Source: a virus
Direction: 5' to 3' (one strand)
Virus record (IMG/VR): IMGVR_UViG_3300046516_000543
Span: 1 to 53,224 of that record
DNA: 53,224 nt
In this document: positions 3,635 to 12,334 of the stretch, in pieces
Layout of the letters: every line of letters starts with the position of its first letter
Numbering within the stretch: the first letter of the stretch is position 1
Made by a program: the position numbers and the translations under genes
Notes under the pieces: generated by a model
Database searches by the model: none
What the model was told of the DNA's origin: nothing
Seen by the model: only the letters and a program-made list of their open reading frames with translations

Positions 3635-3955
3635 TTAAAACGGAATTTCATCGTCATCGTAGCTGACATCGTTTGGGTAGGCGCGGGCGGCGTAGCGGTC
3701 GTTCTCGGCCTCCTGGCCCTCGCCGTTCTCGTTCCACTTGCTGGTGTCGCCATCGGTGTCCCACGGCTCATCGCTTTCCGGGTGCGGCACCGCAGGGCCA
3801 GCGTAGTGCGGGTTCTGCACCCAGACATCCCAGTCGTGCAGCAGCCACGCCTTGGTGGCGTTGTCGCCGTCGCCGCCGATGTTGCGAGCCCATTCGGCCA
3901 CGGCCTCTTGCGGCGTAGCGAGATGATCGCGTTCGTCTTCGTAGCGTCCAAACAT
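3635..3955 (-). CDS. Hypothetical acidic protein with SSB-like C-terminal tip
   Basis: A 106-residue protein with an N-terminal helical/Trp-rich part and a long disordered acidic tail ending in D-D-D-E-I-P-F. Bacterial SSB proteins end in the same acidic tip (D-D-D-I-P-F in E. coli), which docks RecQ, RecO, PriA, exonuclease I and other repair proteins. I see no OB-fold, so it is not an ordinary SSB. It may compete for SSB partners, or be the acidic tail of an unrecognised DNA-binding protein. AAGGAG lies 7 bases before the ATG. A decayed copy of the same 3' end is at 47043-47105. Confidence 0.75.
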   Translation of the reverse strand: MFGRYEDERDHLATPQEAVAEWARNIGGDGDNATKAWLLHDWDVWVQNPHYAGPAVPHPESDEPWDTDGDTSKWNENGEGQEAENDRYAARAYPNDVSYDDDEIPF

Positions 3956-3965
3956 TTGTTGCTCC

Positions 3966-4199
3966 TTAAATCTCCGGTTCCCATTGCATGGCGGCGTGGG
4001 CCATGGCCTCGACCAATTCGCGGTAGGTGGCAGCTTCGCCCAAGCCTTGCGCCCGGTGAATTTCCGCCAACATCTCGGCGCGGACCAACGACTGCCGTTG
4101 ACCGTCGCTCAAGCGTGGCCAGCCGTGGCCCCACTGTCGCGCCACGTACTTGACCGCTTCGGCCAATCGCTTCGCGGCGTGTTTGTCTGCGTCAGTCAT
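3966..4199 (-). CDS. Hypothetical protein
   Basis: A 77-residue helical protein rich in Ala, Arg and Glu, starting in an ATGA overlap with the upstream gene. Regular spacing of Leu/Ala suggests a small helical bundle. No motif or family recognised. Confidence 0.65.
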   Translation of the reverse strand: MTDADKHAAKRLAEAVKYVARQWGHGWPRLSDGQRQSLVRAEMLAEIHRAQGLGEAATYRELVEAMAHAAMQWEPEI

Positions 4200-9126: not shown

Positions 9127-9279
9127 TTATTTCTTCGGCTTGGCCTTATCCTGGGCGTCCTTGATCAGCTTGCTGGCGTGATCGACGCCGGGGCCGGTAG
9201 CCTCCCGAAACGGCAGATCGTCATCGAAATGCTCTGGCGGAATCTCATACTTCGGTTTCTGTTTCGGCTCAGTCGTCAT
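9127..9279 (-). CDS. Small hypothetical protein with an internal acidic LPF motif
   Basis: A 50-residue ORF with a Lys/Pro-rich N-terminus, the motif H-F-D-D-D-L-P-F at residues 17-24 and a Lys-rich C-terminal helix. The stop abuts the stop of the convergent kinase gene. The F-D-D-D-L-P-F motif looks like the SSB acidic tip but is internal. It is the last gene of the second minus cluster. Function unknown. Confidence 0.6.
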   Translation of the reverse strand: MTTEPKQKPKYEIPPEHFDDDLPFREATGPGVDHASKLIKDAQDKAKPKK

Positions 9280-9284
9280 GGTAC

Positions 9285-9485
9285 TCACTCGATCTTTTGA
9301 ATGTCCTCCAGCTTAATCTTTTTCTTCAGCAAAAGCTGCAGCAATGCAGCAGCCGTGAACGGGATGCGGCCCTCGTCGAGCGCCCAGCGCCGCGACGTGC
9401 GGGGTCCGACCTTGAACAATTCGCCAAGCCCAAGCTGGCTCAGATTCAGTTTGTCCAGGGCGGCACGATATTGTTTGGCGTTCAT
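9285..9485 (-). CDS. Small helix-turn-helix DNA-binding protein
   Basis: A 66-residue protein with L-N-L-S-Q-L-G-L-G-E-L-F-K-V-G-P-R-T-S-R-R-W, a Cro/XRE-type helix-turn-helix core with a recognition helix ending in R-R-W, followed by a helical Leu/Lys tail. This compact form is common in alphaproteobacterial phages. It could be one of the regulators of the seven-copy operator; nothing here proves that. Confidence 0.7.
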   Translation of the reverse strand: MNAKQYRAALDKLNLSQLGLGELFKVGPRTSRRWALDEGRIPFTAAALLQLLLKKKIKLEDIQKIE

Positions 9486-11809: not shown

Positions 11810-12334
11810 TCAAGTATTTTTGGCGAGGTTGGCTGTGGCTCTAGCCAGCAGCGTCGGGTGGCCGTGGCCCAGGACCGCGAGCTTTTTGGTCATTTCGCTC
11901 AGGTATCTCTTGGCGAAGGCCGGATTGGCCGCGACGGCGAGCCCGATGTTGCTGGAGTTGTCGACCATGTCGGCGAGCTTGATCGAGGCCCCTGTGGGGC
12001 TCGTGGCGGCGACGTGGGCGACGTAGGCGGCAAACCGCAGCGGTCTATTGCCCGGCACCTTTTCGATCTTCGGGTCGGTCACCTCGGCGACCAAGGCGGC
12101 GACGGCGGGACCGAACTCGGCCTCGATCATCGCGGCGGTGATCTCGGTGTCCTCGACCACGTCATGGAGGTAGGCGGCGGCGATCACCTCGGCCGGGAAG
12201 CCGAGATTGGCGAGCGTCGCAGCAACACGCTTGGGATGCTCGATGTAGGGCTCGCCCGTGTACTTTCTGAAGACCCCGGCGTGCGCCTTGGTGGCGAACG
12301 CGAGGGCCTTCTCGACAAGGGTGGCGGGAAACAC
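11810..12334 (-). CDS. HD-domain phosphohydrolase, MESH1/RelA-SpoT hydrolase-like
   Basis: A 174-residue protein from a GTG start with AAAGGAG 8 bases upstream. It carries the HD-hydrolase signature of MESH1 and SpoT: R23-K-Y-T-G-E-P-Y-I-E-H33-P, L-H57-D58-V-V-E61-D62-T, and K119-L-A-D122-M-V-D-N. These residues bind the manganese ion and remove pyrophosphate from (p)ppGpp in the characterised enzymes. It lacks synthetase, TGS and ACT domains. It sits alone between promoter copies 3 and 2, so it appears to be separately regulated. Probable role: cleaving host alarmones during infection; related nucleotide substrates are possible. Confidence 0.85.
   Translation of the reverse strand: MFPATLVEKALAFATKAHAGVFRKYTGEPYIEHPKRVAATLANLGFPAEVIAAAYLHDVVEDTEITAAMIEAEFGPAVAALVAEVTDPKIEKVPGNRPLRFAAYVAHVAATSPTGASIKLADMVDNSSNIGLAVAANPAFAKRYLSEMTKKLAVLGHGHPTLLARATANLAKNT

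Follow-up and report, generated by a model that had tools for sequence, protein, structure and literature searches.

A 106-aa protein encoded in the window (the whole 53,224-nucleotide stretch of viral DNA analyzed here) ends in the SSB tip most common among Alphaproteobacteria, carried by a disordered tail behind an acidic core that is predicted not to be an OB fold. This tip is conserved among the tailed relatives of the protein. We propose, with a probability of roughly 0.55, that the protein is a phage adapter, whose core would have a tip-independent function and whose tip would dock to host or phage SSB-binding proteins.

Gene and protein

The first-pass annotation had described a D-D-D-E-I-P-F end after a long acidic tail, and translation of the minus-strand gene (Table 1) confirmed it: the product ends in SYDDDEIPF*, with the tip and stop encoded by GAC GAT GAA ATT CCG TTT TAA, and the net charge is −12 for the tail (residues 61–106) and −5 for the core (residues 11–60). 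The gene lies within a series of small genes on the same strand and is the only ORF of the window with an SSB-like C-terminus. Its end follows the functional SSB-Ct motif pattern (acidic residues at −4 to −6, a hydrophobic residue at −3, P at −2, and F at −1) and, as in SSB (PF00436), closes a disordered linker. When the protein's own tail was shuffled, such an end arose in 8 of 200,000 trials.

Table 1 Coordinates of the SSB-tipped protein gene and its parts in the window.
Feature	Position	Strand	Remarks
106-aa protein gene	3635..3955	−	Stop codon included
Ribosome-binding site AAGGAG	3962..3967	−	Six bases 5′ of the ATG
Folded acidic core, residues 11–60	3776..3925	−	pLDDT ~95; PHROG 36991 match at residues 13–65
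Disordered acidic linker, residues 61–100	3656..3775	−	pLDDT ~50–60; columns of high entropy in the family alignment
SSB-like C-terminal tip DDEIPF, residues 101–106	3638..3655	−	Conserved tip columns; commonest alphaproteobacterial SSB tip

Elsewhere in the window, a 53-aa ORF (9127–9288, minus strand) carries an FDDDLPF that is internal, not C-terminal. The weak PHROG 18154 match of the window (E = 0.001) corresponds to this internal motif, aligned at the end of the SSB profile.

Family and predicted fold

A Pfam domain search with the 106-aa protein gave no match, and PHROG 36991 matched it with E = 3e-13. All 44 aligned members of the family match PHROG 36991 and none matches Pfam; the PHROG is the family itself, as a database entry without a function or any mention of the tip. 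Relatives found by tblastn came from seven Brevundimonas jumbo phages, Xanthomonas phage XacN1, and Erythrobacter phage L02. When viral contigs were scanned with an alignment, 38 loci were obtained, and a second such scan added ten, whereas a scan of viral contigs with a single sequence gave no match. Members were also present on two bacterial contigs, Bradyrhizobium CSA207 and a Blastochloris MAG. Because the family profile matched only 1 of 385 alphaproteobacterial genomes, namely Bradyrhizobium, we consider the family to be phage-borne. The 18 genomes checked carry one copy each, except XacN1, which has two. In the XacN1 record (L005), the two family matches score equally and lie towards opposite ends, and the copy that was read is tipless.

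AlphaFold2, run on the family alignment, predicted a ~50-residue core made of a helix (residues 15–27) and a beta hairpin (strands 37–39 and 45–47), followed by a disordered tail, with the pLDDT values given in Table 1. The predicted core is therefore not an OB fold, in line with the first-pass annotation, which had seen no OB-fold pattern. With this core, the best Foldseek hit against the PDB had an E value of 2.3, neither VIA-align nor a PDB sequence search returned a match, and only two BFVD proteins fell below E = 0.001, neither with a known function. W45, Y51, G53, and P59 are invariant across the 44 aligned members, within the signature W-L-L-x-D-W-D-V-W-x-x-N-P-x-Y-x-G-P-x-V-P-H-P-E, and the net charge of the core is negative in every one of them (−2 to −7).

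Conservation of the tip

Tip conservation was evaluated on 48 non-redundant members, which were counted as tailed when 15 or more residues followed the core (L018 was counted as short). A P-[F/Y/W] end was found in 27 of the 33 tailed members, divergent ones included, and in none of the 15 tailless ones (Fisher p = 5e-8). The two findings named beforehand as speaking against mimicry, an OB fold and a tip not conserved in homologues, both failed to appear.

The ends of the tailed members are mostly D/E-D/E-I-P-F: P occupies −2 in 27/27 and F occupies −1 in 23, while −3 is mostly I and −4 to −6 are mostly D/E. Column entropy is 0 bits at −2, 0.75 at −1, and 1.3–2.4 at −3 to −6, and reaches ~2.7–3.6 further in, the linkers being variable across the family, unlike the tip. 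Since the tip codons differ between members, conservation acts at the protein level. Among control ORFs from the same loci, a P-[FYW] end occurred in 1 of 722, an approximate rate as these ORFs were called mechanically, and in 0 of the 47 acidic-ended ones; together with the shuffling result, these counts rule out a chance acidic end.

Another reading is that the C-terminal P-F is recognized by a non-SSB partner, for example a protease, or that the tail is a generic acidic DNA mimic. Hydrophobic C-terminal residues can indeed serve as protease signals, and the whole protein is acidic. Considered against DNA mimics of the Ocr and ArdA type, in which a structured acidic surface copies DNA, the core is acidic, and the structural searches with it returned no match. 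A generic acidic tail would, however, explain neither the invariant P at −2, the F at −1, and the I/V at −3, nor the agreement with SSB tips of hosts described below, which makes this reading improbable.

Some members carry imperfect tips (KDVPF, VDPPF, SDPW). On a poorly resolved tree built from 56 columns, the tip changed ~15 times, with no more clustering than for shuffled labels; coming and going so often on this weak tree, it appears to be dispensable in some phages.

Two observations concern the rest of the C-terminal region. A linker segment, WDTDGDTSKWNENGE..EAENDR, is near-identical between the window protein (3635–3955) and L009 (3001–3354), while linkers elsewhere vary, and it may be a second motif; no relatives of the linker were found in the phage collection. 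In L052, L053, and L054, a different C-terminal sequence (FPINGWFVSYSEAAKYARAQ...) replaces the tail and is perhaps an alternative module.

Match to host SSB tips and candidate partners

From the relatives, we infer an alphaproteobacterial host for the window virus. Among the SSB tips read from Alphaproteobacteria, 28 in all, DDEIPF, as in the window protein, occurred 17 times and DDDIPF 7 times. The Bradyrhizobium genome encodes an SSB ending in DMDDDIPF and a family member ending in DDDDIPF. Like the SSB-Ct of bacterial SSB (PF00436), the phage tail is a disordered linker leading to a DDEIPF/DDDIPF tip whose C-terminal Phe is free and whose sequence is the same as in the hosts. It differs in that the protein has no OB fold, its core is acidic, and its linker is short and acidic, where that of bacterial SSB is weakly charged. 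Mimicry of the SSB tip is thus well supported at the level of sequence and predicted fold, by the non-OB core, the retention of the tip in divergent relatives, and its identity to host tips. As the first-pass annotation suggested, the protein may use this tip to recruit or occupy host repair and restart enzymes, or to keep them from host SSB.

The SSB tip serves as a hub: in E. coli, 17 or more proteins of genome maintenance recognize it. SSB-interacting proteins bind the nine-residue acidic tip MDFDDDIPF of SSB (PMC10018359). ExoI, which the first-pass annotation had listed among the enzymes docked by the tip, is an unlikely partner here because, of the 41 genomes of Alphaproteobacteria sampled, only 3 had its Pfam domain. 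The polymerase chi subunit was detected in 35 of the 41.

SSB and SSB tips in phages

A PF00436 SSB was detected in 0 of the 41 phage records holding the family, many of which are fragments; the same search found an SSB in 10 of 14 control genomes. A PHROG 18154 SSB was co-detected with the family in a single genome, that of a tailless relative. Searches with PHROG 743 and PHROG 112 matched none of the control genomes and are therefore uninformative on absence.

When viral contigs were scanned for ORFs ending in DDDIPF, 24 of the 80 matches listed were SSB-like according to a home-made profile. Of 52 other ORFs scanned among the matches listed, 13 matched PHROG 18154, 8 PHROG 743, and 2 PHROG 9002, all three labelled as ssDNA-binding. 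The same end was also present, among the matches listed, on one Erf-type annealing protein and two DEAD-type helicases (L114, L099, and L113), which places the SSB tip on phage proteins of various types other than SSB. This broader scan suggests that the tip is common to several kinds of phage DNA-metabolism protein; most of the carriers listed are ssDNA-binding or related proteins, the PHROG 36991 family being an exception by its fold.

The phage SSB families (PHROG 18154, 743, and 7364) have only the C-terminal tip in common with the window protein and differ from it in the core. For the small 18154-type set, this was checked by profile comparison with hhalign, where 12 columns aligned, all at the tip, and the cores were not homologous. 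The predicted non-OB fold, the lack of a Pfam match, and this tip-only alignment rule out an ordinary SSB.

It could still be argued that the protein is an atypical small ssDNA-binding protein, whose core binds ssDNA and whose tip acts as that of SSB. The many ssDNA-binding families among the DDDIPF matches listed, the absence of a PF00436 SSB from the phage records of the family, and the conserved aromatic residues of the core would fit such a role. Against it stand the predicted non-OB fold, the alignment with the small phage SSB family at the tip only, and the negative charge of the core in all 44 members, given which binding of ssDNA by the core is unlikely. We regard this as the least probable of the readings considered, and a very improbable one.

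A precedent for tip docking in a phage is given by the SSB of HK620, whose tail NDYPPF is required for the action of this SSB on Sak4 (PMC5928155), although in that case the tip is carried by a true SSB. In the open-access literature searched, no report of a non-SSB phage protein with an SSB tip was found.

Adapter or decoy

The main rival to the adapter is a competitive decoy, abundant after infection, whose tip would fill the SSB pocket of host enzymes and displace host SSB, so that repair nucleases, restart, or the replication of the host would be blocked, with the core as a mere folded carrier. The conserved tip of the tailed members and its identity to host SSB tips are compatible with this, as is a small, acidic, free-standing protein encoded in a run of small same-strand genes; moreover, the isolated SSB-Ct peptide binds RecO and alters its behavior (PMC10018359). 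However, a mere carrier fails to explain a core with four invariant residues that is tailless in 15 of 48 members, and we consider the decoy possible but doubtful.

Because these 15 members keep the core without a tail, the core probably has a role of its own, and tip-based blocking cannot be the whole function of the family; for the same reason, we favor tethering of a core function over pure blocking. In the adapter reading, the ~50-residue acidic core, unlike any solved structure, would carry this tip-independent function, and the end of the disordered tail, as a copy of the host SSB tip, would dock in the pocket where SSB-interacting proteins take SSB. Docking would bring the core to host or phage replication and repair enzymes, and at high dose the tip could also compete SSB away from them. 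More tentatively, this widespread family of phage proteins may have adopted the host SSB tip as a detachable docking module, repeatedly gained or lost, through which a novel domain is directed to the machinery of replication and repair in phages that lack a recognizable SSB of their own.

A phage family in which an unrelated domain carries a copy of the SSB tip would provide a natural mimetic of SSB, usable as a tool to find which SSB partners phages need or disarm and as a lead for peptide inhibitors of the SSB-binding pocket. It would also offer a route to a function for PHROG 36991, which has none.

Gene neighborhood

No fixed gene neighborhood indicating a pathway was found around the family loci, where the neighbors are mixed and include primase, PhoH, thymidylate synthase, head, and endolysin genes. 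The neighboring genes thus point to no partner. The window also encodes a metal-dependent phosphohydrolase (PHROG 990; 11810–12334, minus strand). In L009, L011, and L014, relatives of this gene are located immediately upstream of the PHROG 36991 gene.
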